This document shows positions 2,595-46,500 of a stretch of DNA of 64,000 bases, piece after piece. Made by a program: the position numbers and the translations under genes. Numbering within the stretch: position 1 is the stretch's first letter; every line of letters begins with the position of its first letter. The notes below the pieces were generated by a model. That model searched no databases. It had not been told where the DNA came from and worked only from the letters and a program-made list of their open reading frames with translations. This stretch comes from Antedon mediterranea (taxonomy: Eukaryota; Echinodermata; Crinoidea; Comatulida; Antedonidae): NCBI RefSeq assembly GCF_964355755.1, contig NC_092671.1:1431001-1495000 (forward strand), given 5' to 3'.

Positions 2595-2730
2595 GCTCAG
2601 TGATGTAGCCACGAGAAATAAAGTGGTGCTTGAACAATCTCTGTTCAAGCTACTGGGTTGTCAACCTCTGTAAAAAAGTGGTCACCTTACCAACCATACT
2701 GGTGGCTATGGCCCTGGCGCTCCCCGTTAA
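2595..2730. repeat. Dispersed repeat fragment
   Basis: The stretch with cctctgtaaaaaagtggtca and accaaccatactggtggct has an inverted relative at about 49305-49380. Class unknown. Confidence 0.6.
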
Positions 2731-5700
2731 AAAAATCCTGAATCTTCCCCAACATTCTCCAGAATTTTGACACCCCCAAATGAGAGCTTGGTGAAACAAA
2801 ACTTGCATAATGAAAAGGGTGATTAACTTTATCTTTATCTATCCTCCATGTCTGATTGAAATTTAATCAAAATATTTTGTTTTGACCATAGCTTTAAAAT
2901 ACTCAATAGTTCATCATATATTCATCGGCACACCCCAAGATCTAAGCCTTTGGGATGCCTCTCAATGCTTTCTAAAGAGATGGAATAATTCCTACATACA
3001 GTAGCTGTTGTAAATGGTTTGATCTTCTTTTAATCTTTGTTATCCTTGAAAGTTTACTTGCACCCAACTTGCATCTAGCATGTAAAGAGTTTATATGGTA
3101 AACTCAGAAAGTGAATAACCTACAGTACTACGGTTTTACTTTACTGTCAGTGGCACATGGCTATGAGAGCTCATTGGATTAACCCAGGGGCTCCAGAGCT
3201 CAGATGCCCAGAGCTAAGAGAGGCCGAGAGCTAAGAGAGGCCGAGAGTTAAGAGGGGCCCAGAGCATGAACAGCCCCAATGCAATTAACAAGCATTGGAG
3301 GGCCCTTTAAGAAACAAGGGGCCTTTTGCACCTCACTACGTAACTGTGTACTGTATTCATATTGTGTAAAGGGCATATCATTTTGTATAGCAGCTGTAAC
3401 GTTAAATTTGATTGGGTTATTAAACTAAAATCTTAATAAAAATGTTCTTATAAACTCAAAAACTATATACAAATTATTATTTTACCTTGATCTCCAATAA
3501 TAGCTATAATATTTCAATTTTTTTTTTAGTAATTAAGGTAAATGAACTCGAAGTTTGCACTAAAATTTAGTATCCACTTGACCCTACTACACAAAAACTG
3601 ACCTTGTGGTACACAAGTTAACATGTCTGACACGCTCTCACTCTCCAAGATCAACAGACTGGGCATGTATTTTGCGGTATAACGACTTTTAAAAACAGAT
3701 AAACAATTGACTTGTAAACATTGCATTTGAACTCAATTAGATATTGTAAATAATTGAGCCAAACTTAAGCCTGTCATTCAATTAACTTAACTTTCATAAT
3801 TTTACTGCATACACTTGCTTTAAGCAAATGAGTCATCACGGATTGAAGATGTAAAAAACATTCTTAAAATCCTCAAATTACATAAGTACAGTATATGAAT
3901 CATGCTTTATTTTAAGTACCATACTTTAATTTAAGCTTCATTCACATTTTACTTTTTTGGTCAAACTACCAAGCGGTTCAGTCCGGTCAAGTCCTACGGT
4001 CATTCACACATTGATTGTCTTGTTTTAAAGAGTCAAACAATCTGAGAGTCGTGAAATCTACTAGCGAGAGCGCTTAATCGCGAAATGTTTCCATGAAACA
4101 TGCAACATGAAGTGACTAGCTGCGTGTTAACTGTTCAGACTTTCCATCTCAACTAAACGAATTTTACTTTTCAATGTTAAATAAAAGTATAAGAATTACA
4201 AGGACTACACCTAATTTTAAAATTATGTAAAGCAGAATTTGCATATTTTGTAAGGTGTTACTTCATAAATAAAAACATTATAGTGACAAAAACCAATACT
4301 AAAAGGAAAAAAAGATTTACCCATGAAATAAAATCAGAAACTAACTTTTAATATCTCAGCGTTATCAAATAGTTTATAGATCCACCTTGCCAAACCTAAA
4401 ATAAATCTAAATTGCACATGTTTCGCATTAACTATGATGCCGTATGATTCATTATTGATCCAAGATGAAGAGGTGGGAACAGTTGACTAACTTTCTCACA
4501 CTACCAAAACCAATACAAACATCATCATTCATAATATCTTCTTTAATTCTGCCTCCCACTTATGTATATGAATCATCATTGCTAATCTTTCACATGTTGG
4601 TGTCAAGGGCGCGGGTATTAGATTAAGTTCCCAAATTATGAATAATTAGATAAATAATGTACTTAAAAGTTTATATTGGTATCCCTGTCCTTGTAGTTTG
4701 TATGGACTTGATCATGGCTCTATGTAATGGCTACCAGTCTTGAATACTGTACTTCAACTTAACTGACCAATTCTCAGTCCCACCATAGTACAATACAGGG
4801 TCAGAACCAGATTATTGAAAACTGAAAATGAATGAGCTAGCACCCTTTTGTTTTTTAAGATTAAAAATTGTAAAAAGGTCAAAAATTCTACAAAAATTAC
4901 TGAATTTCAAAAATTCTGCATAGGTAAAATATCAAATTTATTAATTTACTGTACACAATTTGAACACAAAATTTATTTTTTAAGTGTGGTGCTTGTGAAA
5001 GTAGGTCACTATATTTCAGGTGGTGCAAACCACAGTCCAGTCTGGTTGAGTTTTATAATAAAATATCACTCAAGGCCAAAAGGAAGTAAATAAATAAAAT
5101 ATCAAATCTGGATTTTTAATGACATTTAAAAAAAAACATACAATGACCATTATTATAACAGTAATCTGTGAAAATTTTACTAATACTTTATACGGTATAT
5201 TACACAGAATTATTAACTAATCTTTAAAAAAAAAAGTGAATGACAAAAACAATTGCCGGATACAATAGTTTTTTACAACTTAGATAATACAATACATTAC
5301 TGTTATTAAGTTTAGCAGGTATTGCTGGAGACGGACGTCTTTGCACGTCGGCCGTCGCTCCCAGAGTTATCAATCTCTCACTCTCTCTGGCTGATACCAA
5401 ACTGGCATATTCCCAATATTGTTGGATATATAAAAATTGTCACAACTTACATAAAACAATGCAATACCGTTATTAGTTAGGTAAAATACAACATTCATTT
5501 AGTTACCAAGATTTATAAAAAGGAGTGGTACACTACACCTACCTTACTCAAGCGTAATCAACCAGAAAGTAAGGCAGAAAGTACAGAAACACTCCTATAT
5601 CATGTAATACAAGTCCCCAATCCTGTTCACCATATGTAAACACTTGTAATGTGGTTTAACAAGTTCAAGCAAGTATCTGATACAAAATGTGATTGTATTT

Positions 5701-30500: not shown

Positions 30501-33500
30501 TTAAACTTTAACATCTTCGCCAGCAGCGAGGGAATCCAATGTCTTCTTAATTCGCAGTGTGGTTAGCCTAGCAGCTCCGTTATGATACCAACATTCTTTC
30601 ATCAGTTTTGCCATGATACGCATAGCCTGCAAAAAGTTACAATTATTATATAAAAACAAATATTGCATACTCAATAGCAATTGAGGGTCACACTATGAAT
30701 TGGCTACCATTTCAGTTCAACATCTACACATAGGTCACCCTATTAACTGGCTACCAACCACTCATCATGGGTCACAATATTAATTGCCTAATTGTTTAAA
30801 TAAATGATAGGTTGAATGAATATACATGTTTTGGATTACTTAATCCATTTTCATGATTGTACATACCTCAATAGAACTCCACCAGTTGGGGATAGAGGGC
30901 CTGTATTGATCAACACAAACAACTTTTCTCATTAAATCAATGTTGGGGTCTAACGGCACATACTCAAAGTAAGGCAAACAACTATCTTCAACGAAACCTG
31001 GAAAAATAAAAAAAAACAAACATTATTATCATAATATTATATCTCTCAAAGAACAATTATTAGGACTTTCTTTCTGGATGGTTTAGCTTATTGTTTAGTT
31101 TATTAGTATCTCCATTGAGATACTCATACTCATGTCAAGAGAGCGAATGCCAAAATGACACGGAACAATGCTTAAATGTGCCAGTCACCTAGTGCATGCG
31201 CATATCATAAAAATGACTTTATAGGGTAGCAGTCGACATAGTAGACGTGAAAATCTGAAAGTCCCTATTGTATTGGTAACAGCAACATGACAAGGAAGCA
31301 AGTAAAAAGGTCAGGCCGGGTAAATGTAAATAAAATGTCACTATTTGAGATTTATACGGAATCTTCGAATTTTGAAAAAAAAAAAAAAATGTGATTGTTT
31401 ACCTCCAATGGTACATCTTCTGGCAATCTCCCAGAAAACTAAGCCCAAGGCATAGACATCAGCTCGCTTAAAACAATCAAAGTGATGAATATTAATGGAC
31501 TCATCCAAGACCTCTGGCGACATGTAACGTTTAGTTCCGACTCGGTGGTTTGGAGCAATATCTACTTCATCCGTTGCCGAGTTATGACGCACAGCCAAAC
31601 CAAGATCGGCAATGGAGCACTGGCCGCTACGCATCACTAAGATGTTTGTGCTCTTTAAATCCCTATGTGCAATTGCTGGCTTGCCTATAGTAAAAGATAA
31701 TTAGATGCAGGTTATTTAACATCAAAATTAGAATATACTAGTATAGTGAAATCTATTGGTTAAACTAATTAAATTCATTCATTAATTTTTGTTATTTCAG
31801 ATACAGTAGTACATCCATGGACATAAACATACAATACAAAGAAAATAAAATTAAAAAAATAAATCATCATCGTAAACGCTAATCGTCTTTAGACATTGCG
31901 CATCTCACTTGTGTTCGTTTTTGAGCAAGCATATGAAAAGTTCTGTTTCTTTTTTGATGTTTGCCATCCATGTTTTTTCAATTTGTGAATACGTTTTTGA
32001 ATCTCAAAATGAAAAAGATACAACTGAAATTTTATGCCCAATTAGTGTCCTCTTTGCTTGAGTGTGCTTGTTAATTGATTTACTTTATCCTACCTTGCAT
32101 TCCAATGATTTCCATATGCAAATGAGTTAGACCATTAGCAATTGACCAGGCCATTTTAATCATTCCGTTTACAGTGATTGTTGTACGATTTAAGTAATCG
32201 TAGAGTGAGCCATACTCGTGATAGTCTGTGATCAGTAAAAGCTGCGTAGATATTCCACTATCTGAAAGACAAAAGACGCCAGACATGTTAACATACAAAA
32301 TTCTAAAATAATGAAAATACTGTGACGCTTGGAGTGCGAGTTCAGTGGTGGGTCCAGGATTTTTATTTAGTGGGGCCTAAAAATGGTAAAATGAAATGCC
32401 TAACAGAACCTATTATCCTATCATTGGCATTGCAAATTTGGAAATGGCTAGCCTCACTTAAGTTGTTTTCACGCTGCTGCTCTAGCCCGCTACGTCCCAT
32501 TAGGACTACTCAATCAGAAGCTAAAGCAAGCAGCAGTTATAGTTCTAAGGACAGACAGTTTTGTGAAAATGGAAACTCCACTATGATTTATTGATTCCAG
32601 CTGCTACAGTAGACCCAAAAAACGGCTGGGAAAGAGTCTATTAGGACATGTCATGCTAAAATTACAAATCCCTATATTCACTGTCAGTGTCAGATATTCA
32701 TTGAATTATTATTGAAACAGTCCATTAAAGTTTGTGTTTGTAATAGGATACTTCACAATTGAAATATCTAGGGTGATGAAGTGACCCCCAGATTTGACCT
32801 TAGCAATAAAATTAACTAAAGTGACAGAAATTGAGTATTCACTTCTGTAACAAAAAAGTAATATTTATTCACATATAAAAAATGAAAAGAAACCCAAAAA
32901 CCATTGTCTGACAGACAATTTAAGTATTTGTTGCTTTAAATTACATTTTTTCAGGTAAAATAACTATCTATTATGTGACAATAAAATGACACATTCAAAA
33001 ACATTTGAAATAAAAAATATTTTTCAATAAGCGAGCAGCGTTTTTTGTAAGAAATATTTCTTGTTTAATTAATGATGAAATGTCCAAGTTACCATTAACA
33101 ATTATGTTGTTTTATTTTAATATGTTTATAAATTTGTATTTATTGAATTCATTTTTAATGATACAGTACATGTCTCACCACAGTATCCAGCCAAGCATGC
33201 AGTTTTAATTTTTCTTTTTTTTCCTATGAAAAAGGACGTCAACTACTACAATGTCATAATGATTGTCTAGACATGAGCTTATATAAAAGGATAAAGCAAT
33301 GGCATTGTAAACACACCCCAGTCAAGTACATTCAATAAATTAAAAGCCATTACAACAGGTACATGCCAACTAATTATTGTACTAACATTACAGTGCTACA
33401 ATAAATCATCAATATACTGTATATTACTGTATATAAGAATTTAAGCGTTTTGTCAGTCAAGGTAACTAACAAGACTATTTTGCATTCAGTTGTAGTTGAA

Positions 33501-36500
33501 CAATTTAGTGATGGTGACCCTAAACAGCATATGCTGACAATCAATGGGCCCTCATATAAACATTTACTGTATAACAAAAAAGAATGGAGTTGCTTTTTAA
33601 AAAACAGGTAGATTAGATTAACATTTTGTCATCGCATTGTGATCATTTTTTATACAGTAGTTACTGTATAGAGATATTAATATCTCAATAGTTACTGTAA
33701 CAAAATATTACCTTGGATACTTTTCAGCTAACCTAACCTGGCCTACTTTTAATGTTTGATGTATGTTGAGAACAGGAACGCTAGTAGAACAAACACAAGA
33801 TAGAGAAATAACCTCATGACTTTTTACTTGACATGGTTATTATATGATCTACATTGTATGAGGGTCTGCACTAGAACAACATTCATTCTTCTTTTGTGCA
33901 AGCTTCAGGGAAAAAAACATAATAAAGTTAAAGTGTACATAAAAACTTGACAACAATACCTTTATTGTCAGCTGCAATGAATCCAAGGATATTTTTGTGC
34001 CGAAGCATAACAGTTTGGTAAATTTCTGCCTCTCGGAACCATGATTTTTCCTCACGGGTAGAGAAGACCTTGACAGCGACTGGTTCGTTCCGCCAACTCC
34101 CACGATACACCTCCCCATAACGCCCTTTTCCGATACATTCTTGTATGGTAATCTGGCGAGCAATTGTACGCTGCACAAGTAGAGGAAGCCCTGTAGATGT
34201 TAGAAAGAGATAATGGGTTAGAAATCGGACTGCTAAAGTCTCTGTTGTTGGTATTAACTGGCAATATGTATGTGTGTATTGTACATGTCTATCATGTCAT
34301 ACCAATTAAATTTAGTGGGTCAAATAATACATTTTTTCTTTTATATTTATTATCATATTTCAACCAATTTACAATATTTTTCAACATTTTTATTATTTTT
34401 CTAAAATAAGAAATGTTTTCCAAAAACTTGGCATGCCTCATGTCTGTTTTTTACTGTACTGTTTAAATTAGCTTTTTGATCATTCTATATTTAACACTGG
34501 TCAATGTACCAACAGGGCTGTTAGTTATTTGCATTTTGATTACAAATTATTATTTCTATTCAGAATTTAGAAATAAACATTTAAAAATATTGATAATTAA
34601 ATTGGTTTCTACAAAAAAAAAAGAATCCAACAATATTTAATACTATGAAAAAAAAAAATTATTATTATCGTTTCTAGTTATACATTTTTAAATAAATATC
34701 TGAATCACAACTGAAATCAAAAATTAATGAATAGTATAAGTTGAAAAATTCAAGATAAAAGCACATTTTGTTTAGTGAACAAATGACTGAGCGTATTTGG
34801 AAAAGTAGTACTGTACATTTTTGTTGTATTTATATATTTAGGAAAATTGCCTAAGGCTAATCATAAGCCAAGGATAACCATAAGCGAATTCATTCACTAT
34901 CCGTCTTAAAGGTGGCAATCTCATTCACAAGAGAAATATACACAAGATGCTCTACTGTAAAGTCTTTGAGAGTGGAGTAATGAACTGTCATTAGAAAAAA
35001 TCCTGACACTGACAGGACTTGAACCCAGGACACTTGGATAGATAGCCAAGCCAAGCCAAGCATCATAACCACCAAGCCTCAACTCAACAAAATCAGAAAT
35101 TGACTAATCAACTGTAAAATAATGTGTAAGACAAGACAGAGAGTATTTCATACTTCGTTACTTGTATATTATTCTTGAAATCACATGGGCATCCCAAATT
35201 ATCTAACGTAATTGCCTAGCTACAGGATATAAAAGGTTTCCCACACGAATGTCTAGACAGGGGAATGACGCAGTAGCACAGAGAGAGAAACAGAAATAGT
35301 AAAGACTAATAATATTAAGTCATTAGTACTCTTAAACTAGCATAGTGAAATATTACATATTTTAAGTACAGTAGTACGAATGTATTTTTTGGTTACTGTT
35401 TTATAATTTTACCTAATATTTATTGATACAAAAAAAGTGATGAGAATCTCCATAGCATTTCTATTTTTCCCCCCTAATTAATGTTATTTTACAATATACA
35501 GTACAGTATACAGTATGAAAACAAAATATAAAGCATAAAATGACTGATGTGTATTTCTGTGAAACAGAACTTAGATCCAGACGAAGATTAACATGCATAT
35601 TTGCAATTTTTCAACAAAAAACATGTAGTATTTTTTTAGCACAAAAAAGAATGTAATTGGAACTTGTAACAAAATAATCTTACTACTGTATGTCCGGCAG
35701 GGTCCAATGACATTAGATAAACAATGCTATTGTCTACAGCACCCTCGGTAGATATGTTAATACTCTGAACATTAGCATACATTATTCAAAATGTCAATGC
35801 CATAGTATGAAAGTACAAACAAAAGAAATTAAATAAATTCTACACAATATTCTTCTAAATTGAAATTTGTTTCGAACAATTTACCAAACTGTGAAATATA
35901 CTGTATGTATGTAAATGTAAGCATACAGTAGATATCTATTATCAAAAATGTTAAATTTATTATATTTTATCAATCTAAAGCCTCTTTCTCACAGATGTGT
36001 CTGCAATATACCGGTACAGTGCTGGCGTCGTGCCGGTATCGTGACCGGCATATACCCATTCTCATCGGACTATCGTGCCGGAAATATAACCGGTATATAC
36101 CGGCTTTCTGTGAGAAAGGAGTCGGGCATATTCGGCCAATAAAAAGTCTCTGACAAAATAATTATTGAGGGCGTCCTTTATTGTTATTATTTTTGTCTAG
36201 GGATATATGGCGGCGAATGTTAGGTTACAGATTATTATCTTCCTTTATAGCATATTTATGCAATATATGCTATGTACAGTATATTCTGCATATATTATAC
36301 AGGTACAGCAATTAATTAGCCGTCATCGGCAATCTGTAAAACACCTTAGAAGGCTGTACAATTTACAAGGCGACGAAGGGTCAGGCTAGTTAGGCACCAA
36401 CAAAGAGCTAGAGCCTAGGCCTATATGGCCTAGGCCCCTAGGCCTGCTATAGATTATGCTACAAATTTCTTCTTGTCCCCTTATTTTAAGCAGCTCTCTT

Positions 36501-39500
36501 ATCTCATTATCCCTCCAGTTCGACATTATTATTGTTAATTGAATTGAATCGGCGCCAAAGTGATACACTTGACCGCGCAAGGTGTCTGAAGCCTCGACAG
36601 GGAACCCCGGAATATAACGGCGTTACGTTCTCACAGAATGCCCGTCTGGCATTGCGGGGAATATCCCTAGAATATTACTAGGTCTAAAGCAGGTCATGTC
36701 AATGCCGGCATGGTGCCGGCATGATGCCAAGACGACCCGTTCTCACAGAAAACCATACCGGCATGGTAATGGTATATTCCCGCAATATTCCTGGCACTCA
36801 GCTCTGTGAGAAAGGGGCTTAATTGATATAGCTGCCAATTGCTATTGTGTAATGTATTTAATATCTAGGCCTAGCCTGCCATATCTACTGTTATCTTATG
36901 ATATCTTCTTACACTATTTTAATACCAGTTGGAGCCAATTAATTCTGGTGAATCTTGCTGGTAAAAAACTGGCTTTGTGAGAAAACTATTGCAATAATAC
37001 TAGGAATAATACTAATATTAGTTATCATAAAGAATCCTAATGGTAGCTATTTCCCTGAATATGTTTGCGGCTATCTGTATAGAAATACATTTGCCAAGTC
37101 ATGCGTGATAGCCGCTTTTTTTTAGTGATAGTACTGTACATACATTACATTATTACAAATTATACTATACATTATTTTGCCCATTTTAAAGAAAACAATA
37201 ATAATCCGTTCTACATGTTAATAATTAATTTGAGCACAAGTTAGCCTAGGCCTATGTATTTTTTAGCACAAGTTAGCCTATGTATTTTTTAGCACAAATT
37301 AGCCTAGGCCTCTGTATTTTTGAGCACAAGTTAGCCTAGGCCTATGTATTTTTTTAGCACAAGTTAGCCTAGGCCTATGTATTTTTTAGCACAAGTTAGC
37401 CTAGGCCTATGTATTTTTTAGCACAAGTTAGCCTAGGCCTATGTATTTTTGAGCACAAGTTAGCCTAGGCCTATGTATTTTTGTGTTCAATCGAGTAGCA
37501 CTGCAATGCCTATCTATTCGGTAGACAACTAAACATAGGGTGATTTATTTCATGATAAGGCATACATACATTTCTCATTCATTGGCCATTTAAAAAAGTT
37601 GGGAGATCTATAGAAATGAGGAAAACTAAACATAGAGTGTACTTTATTTCGTGATTATTACATAGAGGACACTGTATATTTTCAATTTATTTTTTTCCCT
37701 CATGGGCCACTGAATAAGTTGGGAGGTATATAAATGATGAACTTACCTGATCCTGAACCAGGTAGAGTTGGATCAATGATATCAATAAGGCTAGGGCCTC
37801 CATCCAAGAACTGAGTAGTATCTGGGTCAGTGATCAACATGTTAGGCATATTCTGTTGACAATGCCGAGCTATCAAGATAATCATTATGAGGATACAGAT
37901 AAAACATATAGGCACAGCAATGAGAGCAGCAAGTTCCAGTGTATCAAACTTGTTCTTGTTACTGTCCTTTAGATCTGTTAGGAAAAGAATGAGTATTAGA
38001 ATAATCAAAAGATGCTGTTGGCTGTTAAGTTGTGAGATTAATAAACAACTTAGGTAAGTAACTAGAAAGAGCTCAAACCACCACCAATGCTACTGTACAT
38101 ATCAATAAAACCGTATAATAAGGCTTTACAATGAAAATCTCTATGGTGAAACTGTCCATTGCTGTGGCAAACTTGATATTTGACCAAGGCATATGGAAAT
38201 TAAATTACATGTTCCCATTCAGCTATGAATCCATCCTTTAAAATCTTATGAAAATTGGGAAATAACTTTTGAGTAATCCTGCTAACAAAATGGCAGAGGA
38301 AAATATGCAATTATTATTGCTTCCCAGATTCCATTTTTAAAAAATAAATAAAATTAATCTGAAAATCTTTGCCACACATAACATTGTAAATTACTAAATG
38401 TTTGATTCAATACCTTTACAGGTCTCTTCACATAACTCTAATGTTGTAAAGCTATTCTCATTCCCTCCACATCCAGAGTACTCAAACTGTACACAACGGT
38501 TAGCTTGTGCCATGTAAGCATACCTCACGAATTCTAATCCTTCGCAAGTACCAGTGTGTAGTGGCTGGTTACATATTACTACAAGAAAAACAAATACATT
38601 CCTCCATACAAAAGATACAATCCACATTTTTATGTATTAGGGCTAGAGATTTTGTTTACAACTAACAAACCATTAGGGACCATGCCAAAATTATTCTACT
38701 GCAGTTTACTGATACTATTTGGTTTACAGTACAATATTTAACCTGTTTATGGAATTATTTACAAAACTTTGTCAGAGTTTCCTTAAATCTAACTAGCGAC
38801 CAAACCATGTTTATTTATATATATATATATCACCGGTATATTTTATTCAATTATACACATAAAAATCAGCAGGGAAAAAAGTAACATTTTTCAGCTGAAT
38901 TGCACTTTATGATAACAGAAAAGGAATACAATTAAAAAAAAAACACATTTTATATTAGATGCACAAATGTCAAATGTGGCAATAGACAACAATAATTGCT
39001 GGTAGACCATGCCGATAGTAAGTAGACCATGCCGATAGTAAGTAGACCATGCCGATAGTAAGTAGACCATGCCGATAGTAAGTCCCATTATTGATACTAA
39101 CCACTTGGTATAGGTGTGTATGGCAACATTATAATGTCCAAGTTGTCATTACAGTAGTCAGCATCGTTACAACACTTCTTCCCATAAAAGTTTGATGGAG
39201 CAGACTCCATACAACTGATATGCTTTGCAGAATCGTTTTTCCCTATTGTCATGAGATCTTCTTCAAGAATACAACCTAATGAGGTTTTCAATATTCTGCC
39301 TATTCTCTGTATAGCCTTTGCACATTGTCCATTCTTTCCAGCATCGCAATAATTGGATTTACATACTCTCATATTTGGATCATCACAAGAACACAAAATA
39401 CCTGAAAAATGGTGATTAAAAACAAAAAACATTTTTAAAACCAGCAGGTCAAATGAATCATTATTTAACTTTGTATATACAAATAATTATAGGCCTACGT

Positions 39501-40004
39501 AATTGTGTGTAAAAGCAATAATCAGAAATCAGTGGGTAGGCTAGTAGGTCTAGGCCTAGACGTCTTAAATTCCAACGCTTGTTCTTTAGTCTAGTAGGCC
39601 TAGTTAGGCCTACTTCCATTAAATTAAAAATATCATTATTATATTATTTATTAATATTATTAGGGCCTCTCTAGGCTAGGCCTAGCCTAGTCTAAATAAA
39701 GGATAGGGCTAGACTCTACCAAGTTATAGAATAGGCCTTAGTCTACCTTATTATTATGTCCACTATACTAGGAATGTAGCCTAGGCCTCTATGTAGAGCA
39801 AAGCTAGGCTAAAGACTTTATAATAGGCAAGGCTAGATCCATCCAACAGGCTAGGTCGGCTGGCGATATTTAATACGTTGTACGAAATCCTTTTCCACTT
39901 TCCTAACCACTTTCTTTTTGTTGAAACTTACCAGTGACACAATGTGGAACAAAACACACTACAAAAACAGTAAAAGCTAAATATCTACAACTTATTAGTT
40001 CCAT
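30501..40004 (-). CDS. alk4/5/7: TGF-beta/activin type I receptor serine/threonine kinase (ALK4/5/7 class) with an extra Kunitz domain
   Basis: Nine exons, each with GT-AG borders and consistent phase: 39932-40004, 39102-39401, 38414-38578, 37747-37974, 33960-34190, 32094-32261, 31403-31684, 30867-30997, 30501-30626. They sum to 1704 nt (567 aa). Residues 1-24 are a signal peptide. Residues 26-115 are a Cys-rich activin-receptor domain ending in [10 protein letters not shown] (101-110). Residues 127-178 are a Kunitz domain, 194-215 the membrane segment, 249-256 the GS box, and about 269-560 the kinase. The kinase has Gly loop GKGRYGEV, Lys296 in [12 protein letters not shown] (395-402), DLG (415-417) and SPE (444-446). 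The L45 loop starts ADNKD and the activation segment has [14 protein letters not shown], both as in ALK4/5/7, which signal through SMAD2/3; BMP-type receptors differ here. Type II receptors normally phosphorylate the GS box of this family. Odd features are the Kunitz exon, a GS box with fewer acceptor residues, and IPNWW where IPNRW is usual. The final exon ends in a normal TAA. Confidence 0.93.
34950..35075 (-). repeat. tRNA-like SINE head in a receptor intron
   Basis: On the minus strand ggcttggtggttatgatgc resembles an A-box region and GGGTTCAAGTCC matches the B box. Confidence 0.5.
35979..36819. mobile_element. PIF/Harbinger-like non-autonomous element in a receptor intron
   Basis: The ends AGCCTCTTTCTCACAG and CTGTGAGAAAGGGGCT are inverted, with TAA at both borders (35976-35978 and 36820-36822), as for PIF/Harbinger insertions. 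Subterminal zones repeat ttctcacag and CCGGCAT/ACCGG words, possible transposase sites. No transposase frame is present. Confidence 0.8.
37231..37485 (+). repeat. Tandem array of about 34-bp AGGCCT-containing units in a receptor intron
   Basis: About eight units of agcacaagttagcctaggcc followed by tatgtattttt recur, with small length changes in the T run and one unit lacking the aggcc word. Confidence 0.9.
38414..38578 (-). CDS. Kunitz/BPTI-domain exon inside the type I receptor
   Basis: 165 nt encode residues 125-179. The six cysteines are at 127, 136, 153, 161, 174 and 178, with spacings 8-16-7-12-3. BPTI has 8-15-7-12-3, so only the second loop is longer, by one residue. The pattern F-x3-G-C-x6-F-x5-C (FEYSGC to LELC) fits the Kunitz family signature, and CGGNENSF is the usual family form. 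The residue after the second cysteine, the P1 position in inhibitors, is Glu, so trypsin inhibition is unlikely. Both flanking introns are phase 1, typical of shuffled extracellular modules. The acceptor follows a pyrimidine-rich run ending cttgtag; the donor is AAAG/gtattg. Skipping the exon would keep the frame and restore a conventional receptor. Domain identity is clear; inclusion in mature mRNA is inferred. Confidence 0.9.
39003..39083 (+). repeat. Four-copy 20-bp tandem repeat beside the receptor exon 2 donor
   Basis: The unit gtagaccatgccgatagtaa repeats four times without change and ends about 20 bp from the exon 2 border, inside the intron. Confidence 0.95.
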
Positions 40005-42717: not shown

Positions 42718-43540
42718 GGTGTGAATGTATGCTTCAGTAGTGTAATGGCGACTGCATGGTACATACTGTACACATAATCACATATATTTTCATATTTCTG
42801 CAGAGTGTGAATGTACGCTTCAGTAGTGTAATGGCGACTGCATGGTACAGTACTGTACACATAATCACATATATTTTCATATTTCTGCAGAGTGAGAATG
42901 TACGCTTCAGTAGTGTAATGGCGACTGCATGGTACAGTACTGTACACATAATCACATATATGTTCATATTTCTGCAGAGTGTGAATGTACGCTTCAGTAG
43001 TATAATGGCGACTGCATGGTACATACTGTACACATAATCACATATATTTTCATATTTCTGCAGAGTGAGAATGTACGCTTCAGTAGTGTAATGGCGACTG
43101 CATGGTACATACTTTACACATAATCACATATATTTTCATATTTCTGCAGAGTGTGAATGTACGCTTCAGTAGTGTAATGGCGACTGCATGGTACATACTG
43201 TACACATAATCACATATATTTTTATATTTCTGCAGAGTGTGAATGTACGCTTCAGTAGTGTAATGGCGACTGCATGGTACATACTGTACACATAATCACA
43301 TATATTTTCATATTTCTGCAGAGTGTGAATGTACGCTTCAGTAGTGTAATGGCGACTGCATGGTACATACTGTACACATAATCACATATATTTTCATATT
43401 TCTGCAGAGTGTGAATGTATGCTTCAGTAGTATAATGGCAACTGCATGGTACATACTGTACACATAATCACATATATGTTCATATTTCTGCAGAGTGTGA
43501 ATGTACGCTTCAGTAGTATAATGGCAACTGCATGGTACAT
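42718..43540 (+). repeat. Ten-copy 86-87 bp tandem repeat of the ASB8 acceptor and start codon
   Basis: Start-codon copies fall at 42745, 42831, 42918, 43005, 43091, 43177, 43263, 43349, 43435 and 43521. Each unit holds a pyrimidine run with an acceptor AG (tttctgcag in copies 2-10; tttcag in copy 1), the leader with gcttcagtag, and ATGGCGACTGCATGGTAC or a near variant, encoding MATAWY. Only the last copy continues into the gene; the others run into intron-like sequence (ctgtacacataatcac). Two intervals are 87 bp and seven are 86 bp. Copies are nearly identical, implying recent expansion or homogenisation. Confidence 0.95.
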
Positions 43541-46500
43541 CATGGAGACAGCACAGCAACATTATCAGTTGTCTGAACGTTTGATACGAGCTGTAAGTGA
43601 CTGTCGTCTGAATGCACATGACACAGTTCTAGAACTCATCAACAAAGGAGCTGATGTAAACCAAGCCCATGGAACCCTGTTACCTCTTCATTGTGCATGC
43701 ATGGTCAGTGATAATGAGATGGTCCAACTGCTGCTACGTAAAGGGGCCAAGGTAAGTACATGCTTAGTGTAAGGCTCGTTCAAATATGAATCCCCAAACC
43801 TTGTCTCTTGAAAATTGGGCGTGTGGCGCAGGGTGGACTACTGATTGTGAGACCGAGGTTCGAATCCAACTCTCGCCGCATTGCTTGTATCTTTAGGAAA
43901 GATACTTTACTTACGTTTGCCAGTGTCGATTTTTGGTAATTTACACCCTAGATGGCTGGAAATGGTACTCTTGCACATAACATTTATGTTGAATGACACC
44001 TCTAGTTTGGCCAGAAATAACACTTTTTATAGCGCGCTAGCAAACAGCAAAACGATCATAGCCTACTTTTCCGCCGCGCCGGTAAACATACGCGAAGAAA
44101 CATTTTTTTGCGTTCATTACGAACGTCAGGGGGAAGTCCTCAATGAAAAAAAATAGGCCTAAGCCTACTCATCAGTAGGACTAACTCTAGTTGGCCGGAA
44201 ACGAAACTTTATAGCGCACTAGCAAACAGTCAAACCATCGTAGCATACTTTTTCCGCCAGTAAACATACACGATAAAAAATGTTTTTGCGTTCAATACGA
44301 ACGTCAAGGGGAATTCCCCGATGAAATAAAACTAGGCCTACTCATCAGTAGGACTAACTCTAGTTGGCCGGAAACGAAACTTTATAGCGCACTAGCAAAC
44401 AGTAAAACCATCGTAGCATATTTTTTCCGCCAGTAAACATACGCGATAAAAAAATGTTTTCGCGTTCAATACGAACGTCAAGGGGAATTCCCCGATGAAA
44501 TAAAACTAGGCCTACTCATCAGTAGGACTAACTCTAGTTGGCCGGAAACGAAACTTTATAGCGCACTAGCAAACAGTAAAACCATCGTAGCATACTTTTT
44601 CCGTCAGTAAACATACGCGATAAAAAAATGTTTTTGCGTTCAATACGAACGTCAAGGGGAATTCCCCAATGAAATAAAACTAGGCCTACTCATCAGTAGG
44701 ACAACTCTGTAGTTGGCCGGAAAGGACACTTCATAGTGTGCTAGCAAACATCACGATCGTAGCCTACTTTTTCCGCCGGTAAACATACGCGATAAGAAAA
44801 ATTTTCTGCATTCATTACAAACGTCAAGGGGAATTCCCCGATGATATAAAAAATGCCTACTCATCAGTAGGACAACTCTGTAGTTGGCCGGAAAGGACAC
44901 TTCATAGCGCGCTAGCAAACAACCCGATCAGAGCCTACTTTTCCGCATGTAAACATACGCGATAAATGAAAAAATATGCCTACCGTACTCATCAGTAGGC
45001 AACTATAGTTGGCCGGAAACGACACTTCATAGCGCGTCAGCAAACATTAAAACGATCGTAGCCTACTTTTTTTTTCCGCCGGCGGGTAAACATATGCGAT
45101 AAAAAACATTTTTTTTGCGTTCAATTACAAACATTGGGGGCAAGAAGTCCCGATAAAATATAACTAGGCCTACTCATTAGTAAGACACCTCTAGTTGCCC
45201 GGAAATAAGACTTCATAGCGCACTATCATATAGGAAAACGATCGTAGCCTTCTTGAATGTATTATACCAGGGAGTTGTAAACTCCCTGATTATACGATCA
45301 AAGCAGCTAGCATTGAATTGCGCCTAGAAAATTAATCACGCCTTTGTCATTTCATGATGTGCGTATGTTACCGACGAAAGAGTAAATCCCACCGATAGAG
45401 TCGATTAATTCAGTGTGATATTGAAAATAATAATATCATTGATATTTATTTTTAATACACATAACATTTTTACAAGAAAAACAATACAATCAATCATTTG
45501 CTTTATTTACAATACAAGTTACCACATTTTAGACAACAGCCAATACTAGAGATCGAAAGAGAGACATGGCAGTAACAAAACACGTGTTTACATCTCTCAG
45601 CGGCGGCCGGTGAAAGCGAGTCTCGGTTGTTTAACCCTTTGTTACGCAGTCTTTTGTTTCTTTGGCTTGTATCGTCTAGTGGTCATGTCACGTGTCTCGT
45701 ATGCATTAGGCTCTTTATGCATGCCGCGCCTCAGCTCTAGAGAAAGTACCTGCCTGTTAATCTATTCTTAGATTGGTTGTGGTTGATATTTTTAAGCGTC
45801 ACGGATAAGGTTTTAAGCGTCACGGCCGACCGTAAAGCGTCACGGTAGAGAACCCAAGCGTCACAGTACCATGACGCTTCAAAGGCCTGGGGAGAACACT
45901 GCGTTAGCCTCTCTCCACCCAGGTGTATAAATGGGTACCCGGTTAGATCAAGACACAACTTTGCGCTGATTACTAGCTGCATTATGGGAGTATGTTTCCA
46001 TACGTGTTTGATCCAAAAAATGATTGGGGTAATAATGTTCAGCGCTTAGAGAAGCTTGCTTGTAGAGCGCTATATAAGAGTGAACTATTATTATTATTAT
46101 TCCCACTTTTCTTGGTCTGCAAAAGTAATCTCGAAAAGAAGCCCGTCTCAAAAGCAAGCCCACTGTGTTCCTTATAAGATAGTATGGCCTTTTTTTCGAG
46201 AAAGACTATTTGAATATCAAAGGAACAAGGTGATTTAATGCCAGATAACTTGTGATGCATATATAATTTATGATAGAGTTTATATCGTACATTCATTTTA
46301 CAGTTTAAAAATGTTATTTTGATCACTAATATGTAAACTTGGCAGGTAAGGTAATTACACAAATTTTACAGCATTCATTTCGAAATGAAGCCCCCTCTTT
46401 AGTTTGCAAAAGTAATCTTGAAAAGAAGCCCACAAAGAGTACTAAACAAATGGGCTTCCTTTCAAGGTTTTATTTTATGCCACAAAGAAGTCCATTCCCT

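Follow-up and report, generated by a model that had tools for sequence, protein, structure and literature searches.

Does the Kunitz-type exon that lies inside a TGF-beta family receptor gene of the crinoid Antedon mediterranea belong to that gene, and what might it do there? The window analysed is a stretch of 64,000 nucleotides (contig NC_092671.1, positions 1,431,001 to 1,495,000), and positions given without a genome locus refer to it.

Receptor gene and receptor class

The receptor gene runs from 40004 to 30501 on the minus strand and consists of nine exons, which join in frame into one type I receptor (Table 1). Exon ends were placed manually, guided by open frames and AG/GT sites, and the phases are consistent. 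Gene anatomy, open frame, domain identity and kinase class can be read from the DNA itself. Pfam recognised in the spliced protein a Kunitz domain (E 2.9e-15), a TGF_beta_GS box (E 8.7e-11) and a Pkinase domain (E 2.9e-35); a GS box followed by a kinase is the arrangement that identifies type I receptors of the TGF-beta family. The predicted receptor is 568 residues long with exon 3 and 513 residues long without it, and both frames are open. The first-pass annotation had placed the Kunitz exon in frame between the ligand-binding and membrane exons with phase 1 introns on both sides, and this arrangement is borne out by the open frame across exons 2, 3 and 4 and by their AG/GT ends.

Table 1. 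Exons of the receptor gene and other features of the Kunitz exon region (window positions)
Feature	Position	Strand	Content
Exon 1	39932..40004	-	Start codon and signal peptide (by eye); donor gtaagt, phase out 1
Exon 2	39102..39401	-	Putative ligand-binding domain, 300 nt, phase 1-1; 10 cysteines, ends CCNDADYCN
Exon 3	38414..38578	-	Kunitz/BPTI domain, 165 nt, phase 1-1; PF00014 match, splice sites
Exon 4	37747..37974	-	Juxtamembrane stretch, transmembrane helix, first half of GS box; 228 nt, phase 1-1
Exon 5	33960..34190	-	Second half of GS box, kinase start
Exon 6	32094..32261	-	Kinase, including L45 loop region
Exon 7	31403..31684	-	Kinase catalytic segment
Exon 8	30867..30997	-	Kinase C-lobe
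Exon 9	30501..30626	-	Kinase end and stop codon
Unspliced open frame around the Kunitz domain	38394..38627	-	77 aa: hydrophobic leader, Kunitz domain, stop
Interspersed repeat fragment, intron 3	38068..38289	-	About 125 nt beyond the Kunitz exon

Among PDB sequences, the kinase is closest to TGF-beta receptor type-1 (E about 1e-159), which is ahead of activin receptor type-1 (1e-132) by about 26 orders of magnitude in E-value; BMPR1B follows at 1e-131. Because TGF-beta receptor type-1 is the best match, the receptor is assigned to the ALK4/5/7 class, an assignment made from PDB sequence matches and not from a tree. A genome search revealed three GS-box loci, and a kinase search agrees. The L45 loops of the two type I paralogues are SDMTSRNSCTQL and ADIKGTGSWAQF, and the loop of the receptor differs from both; we take the paralogue loops to be of the ALK1/2 and ALK3/6 types, and that of the receptor to be of the ALK4/5/7 type. 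Thus, a single ALK4/5/7-class gene was found among the three GS-box loci, in a genome search that may have missed matches. The paralogues were inspected over their membrane-exon frames and one ligand-binding exon each. None of the 27 Kunitz matches of one genome search, and none of the 23 of another, falls in these two genes (C2:2.25-2.27 Mb and C6).

The first-pass annotation had described the receptor as otherwise normal for its class, a description that needs qualifying for exon 2 and the GS box. Compared with the Activin_recp family (PF01064), exon 2 scores 14.1 bits (E 0.098), below the cut-off of 20.9; other Pfam scans and the genome family search returned no Activin_recp match for it at E 0.1, and no PDB sequence matched it up to E 10. 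A BLASTP comparison with the BAMBI ectodomain of the same genome gave nothing useful. The ten cysteines and the terminal CCN box of exon 2 follow the pattern of human type I ectodomains. The GS box, encoded by exons 4 and 5, reads TLPGSGSG, and the two type I paralogues have TSGSGSG and SSGSGSG. Since the human ALK4/5 box is TTSGSGSG, two residues that are usually phosphorylatable are missing from the crinoid receptor.

Other loci were noted along the way. The BAMBI-like ectodomain exon lies in G000:C1:30883500-30887500, at about 1659-2132 (PF06211, E 4.3e-14); BAMBI is the pseudoreceptor of the same pathway. A type-II-like receptor gene on the minus strand of G000:C2:6646700-6652000 has two tandem cysteine-rich exons (2728-3132 and 1577-1984) upstream of its membrane/kinase exon. 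These exons, of 405 and 408 nt, are both open and share 92.9% DNA identity over 860 bp, and neither is recognised by Pfam. They look like a duplication of the ligand-binding domain and may be an assembly duplicate. In the window, an 86-bp unit is repeated 9.5 times (42719-43540, 97% matches) and runs into an open frame that, by eye, resembles the first coding exon of an ankyrin-repeat gene. The consensus unit contains CTGCAG, which resembles an acceptor, as well as ATGGCGACTGCATGG; it therefore seems that the region of the start codon has been multiplied. Near the ankyrin-like frame, at 43814-43900, lies a tRNA-like SINE head, with putative box A and box B motifs identified by eye.

Identity of the Kunitz exon

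Exon 3 is preceded by ttgtag and followed by gtattg, in phase 1 on each side. The PF00014 profile aligns over its whole length (positions 1-53 of 53) to the 80-residue open frame that contains the exon, with an E-value of 5.3e-17 and 62.2 bits against a cut-off of 21. The window contains one occurrence of the Kunitz signature and one of the six-cysteine pattern, the latter having been fitted to the exon by allowing 15-16 residues between Cys2 and Cys3. When the window was simulated 100 times with a first-order Markov model, the mean count was 0.02 for the signature and 0 for the pattern. A chance Kunitz match is ruled out by these simulations, which together with the full-length profile match confirm the earlier description of a 165-nt exon with all six Kunitz cysteines and the family signature. 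The PDB sequences matched by exon 3 are Kunitz proteins.

The binding loop departs from the usual form. Kunitz domains have the standard spacing C-x8-C-x15-C-x7-C-x12-C-x3-C. All six cysteines are present in exon 3, and one spacing, between Cys2 and Cys3, is of 16 residues instead of 15. Of the nine other Kunitz exons scored in the genome, eight have 15 residues in this segment and one has 13. The P1 residue is Glu in the receptor exon and Lys or Arg in six of the nine. In the combination of P1 Glu with a 16-residue segment, exon 3 differs from all nine exons and from the two PDB matches that were aligned. Because both features alter the binding loop, a canonical Kunitz serine protease inhibitor is unlikely. 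The first-pass annotation had argued from P1 Glu against trypsin-like inhibition, and the Cys2-Cys3 spacing strengthens that argument. The ectodomain modelling that it had recommended gave no structural support: the mean pLDDT of AlphaFold models made without an alignment was 33.7 (exon 2) and 51.0 (Kunitz exon), which is too low for similar folds to be sought.

Origin and probable use of the exon

To place the exon among the Kunitz exons of the genome, 20 of 27 genome matches were fetched, and a complete domain could be scored in nine of them; one further locus (L015) matched the pattern partially, and ten did not fit. In all nine scored exons, as in the receptor exon, an acceptor AG lies 5 nt before Cys1 at the identical position and in phase 1. 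Eight of the nine also have a phase-1 GT no more than 20 nt past Cys6, and in one of these (L009) it stands at +4, as in the receptor. According to the rule for class 1-1 modules outlined in PMC3927616, such modules have phase 1 introns on both sides and are placed into phase 1 introns. Exon 3 conforms on both counts, as it is flanked by phase 1 introns and its host intron is in phase 1. Exon shuffling into an ALK4/5/7-class receptor, as proposed in the first-pass annotation, is well supported by gene anatomy: the kinase class, the nine-exon frame, and the acceptor position and phase common to the scored Kunitz exons.

The insertion is not recent. The closest other Kunitz match in the genome is 43% identical (22 other matches; all 24 candidates scored), which rules out a recent copy of another Kunitz gene, and the receptor exon differs from the nine compared exons at 44-54% of nucleotides, the nearest at 44%. 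A DNA search returned no other match to exon 3 among the matches listed (40 of 224 candidates scored). An assembly duplicate was rejected, as the 1.1-kb stretch occurs complete once among the matches listed in that search (again 40 of 224 candidates scored). Thirteen pattern matches in viral contigs included no relative. The query made of intron 2, exon 3 and intron 3 had 41 DNA matches listed (40 of 224 candidates scored), of which 40 fell on the repeat fragment of intron 3. This repeat has at least 40 further matches in the genome, 12 of them inside C1:8.10-8.48 Mb.

The lack of a close copy and the 44% nucleotide difference indicate that the exon is old yet intact. In simulated drift at a chosen 0.3 substitutions per site, the open frame and six cysteines survived in 0.24% of 20,000 simulations; at 0.1 per site, 10% survived. 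Exon 3 has therefore probably been under constraint. This argument fits a receptor exon and a nested Kunitz gene equally.

The second of these readings, in which the Kunitz frame is a separate small gene for a secreted peptide, nested in the receptor intron and outside the receptor, has the unspliced open frame of Table 1 in its favour: a hydrophobic leader is followed by the whole Kunitz domain and by a stop seven residues past Cys6 (after KGIESNI). Ten upstream read-throughs of Kunitz exons were examined, one of them too short for the hydrophobicity measure. The 8-residue maximum of the leader, 3.84, is the highest of the nine measured, the next being 3.01 and 2.91, and an in-frame Met occurs in one other of the ten (L008), which has a weak maximum of 1.31. 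TATA-like runs are present in intron 2, where they say little in AT-rich DNA. The leader, however, coincides with the polypyrimidine tract of an acceptor positioned as in all nine other scored Kunitz exons. Signal peptidase cleavage sites usually have small residues at -1 and -3, and these are absent ahead of Cys1; neither AATAAA nor ATTAAA occurs between the stop of the frame and exon 4. On the strength of the shared acceptor position and of these two absences, we take the hydrophobic leader as a by-product of the polypyrimidine tract. A nested gene would also have needed a phase-1 donor by chance, 4 nt past Cys6, to mimic an exon. In 38400-39100 a promoter scan found 3 sites that look like promoters against 3.6 expected, a result of no use here because the model is bacterial. 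We regard the nested gene as improbable and keep it in view partly because errors in gene prediction are known to generate spurious new domain architectures, as summarised in PMC4967905. Even less probable is that exon 3 is skipped, being an insertion that is decaying or was never used, and that the shorter form is the functional receptor. The weak donor of exon 3 and the repeat fragment in intron 3 speak for it, and against it stand the frame, six cysteines, signature and splice sites, all intact despite great divergence from the compared Kunitz exons.

A different question is whether the exon is always included. Its length of 165 nt and its 1-1 phase leave either form open, its donor is weak (AAG|gtattg, scored at 0.12 against a donor consensus), and PMC13187141 describes, for chicken and horse, splice variants with and without ligand-binding domains. 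The donor 9-mer of exon 5 in this gene is identical, so that a cassette cannot be argued from splice strength alone. A regulated cassette that yields both receptors, in the manner of APP, is a real possibility to which we give somewhat less than even chances; it is compatible with the exon being part of the receptor and does not exclude it. The Kunitz domain could also inhibit proteases while anchored to the receptor, and would then shield the ligand or the receptor from a pericellular protease. Its scaffold is complete, membrane-bound Kunitz inhibitors exist (HAI-1 and HAI-2, as outlined in PMC12940448), and the second Kunitz domain of GASP1 has been proposed to block myostatin proteolysis (summary in PMC3427181). 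The P1 Glu and the longer Cys2-Cys3 segment, found in neither the genome exons nor the aligned PDB matches, nevertheless make a tethered inhibitor quite improbable.

On balance, the Kunitz exon is likely to be part of the receptor. We infer that it is included in the mRNA and that its domain folds within the receptor: a class 1-1 Kunitz exon would have entered, by shuffling, the phase-1 intron that separates the ligand-binding exon from the membrane exon, and splicing would add it to the receptor as a juxtamembrane module that stands, by eye, some 15 residues away from the helix. As P1 Glu and the Cys2-Cys3 spacing disfavour a canonical inhibitor, a binding or spacer module is favoured, a role that we propose tentatively. 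With its altered loop, the module may serve for binding or as a spacer without inhibiting proteases: it would raise the ligand-binding domain off the membrane and bind a ligand, a co-receptor or a matrix partner, and could thereby alter the formation of the type I/type II complex ahead of Smad2/3-type signalling. A stronger form of this proposal, which we consider doubtful, is that the sole type I receptor of the activin/Nodal/TGF-beta class is an obligate Kunitz chimera, and that Smad2/3-type signalling would need either a novel partner outside the cell (protease, ligand or co-receptor) or the raised ligand-binding domain.

Should transcripts really include the exon, it would suggest a built-in control part of an unusual sort. 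A core pathway would then have accommodated an addition to the ectodomain with no paralogue in reserve, the gene being apparently the only one of its class, and the influence of ectodomain height, or of an additional binding surface, on Smad2/3-type signalling could be tested directly in this receptor.

Comparison with known systems

No Kunitz-bearing TGF-beta family receptor was found in the titles and abstract openings of the open-access papers listed, and no open-access paper was found that treats a Kunitz domain and TGF-beta receptor type-1 jointly. The available portion of a paper on a sea cucumber TGF-beta receptor (PMC12295056) makes no mention of Kunitz, and that of PMC4224354 contains nothing relevant. 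The architecture may already be present, unnoticed, in automatic annotations.

The crinoid receptor shares with the ALK4/5/7 receptors (TGFBR1/ALK5, ACVR1B/ALK4 and ACVR1C/ALK7) the signal peptide, the single, here putative, ligand-binding exon, the transmembrane segment, the GS box and the kinase. It differs from them in the extra Kunitz exon between the ligand-binding and transmembrane exons, in its GS box sequence and in its weak Activin_recp score. APP, which has an alternatively spliced Kunitz exon, is similar in that a single Kunitz exon contributes to the ectodomain of a single-pass membrane protein; in contrast to the crinoid protein, APP is not a kinase receptor. The Kunitz domains of HAI-1 and HAI-2 are high-affinity inhibitors, and neither protein is known to have a signalling kinase. 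What these proteins have in common with the receptor are membrane-tethered Kunitz domains (outlined in PMC12940448).

Kunitz modules also occur within the TGF-beta pathway in the WFIKKN/GASP proteins, for which exon shuffling has been invoked (summaries in PMC3427181 and PMC3906830). These proteins, however, are secreted antagonists, and PMC3906830 names their follistatin and NTR domains as the parts that bind myostatin and its propeptide. The architecture of TGF-beta family receptors is presented in PMC13187141 as highly conserved across animals. The same source reports that the ligand-binding domain has been multiplied in vertebrate ACVR1, BMPR2 and TGFBR2, and cites sponge and oyster cases. 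There, as here, the ectodomain is altered by added modules encoded by exons. Those receptors gained further copies of a domain that they already had, whereas in the crinoid gene a foreign Kunitz domain appears to have entered a receptor of the ALK4/5/7 class, which sets it apart from the published multiplication of ligand-binding domains.
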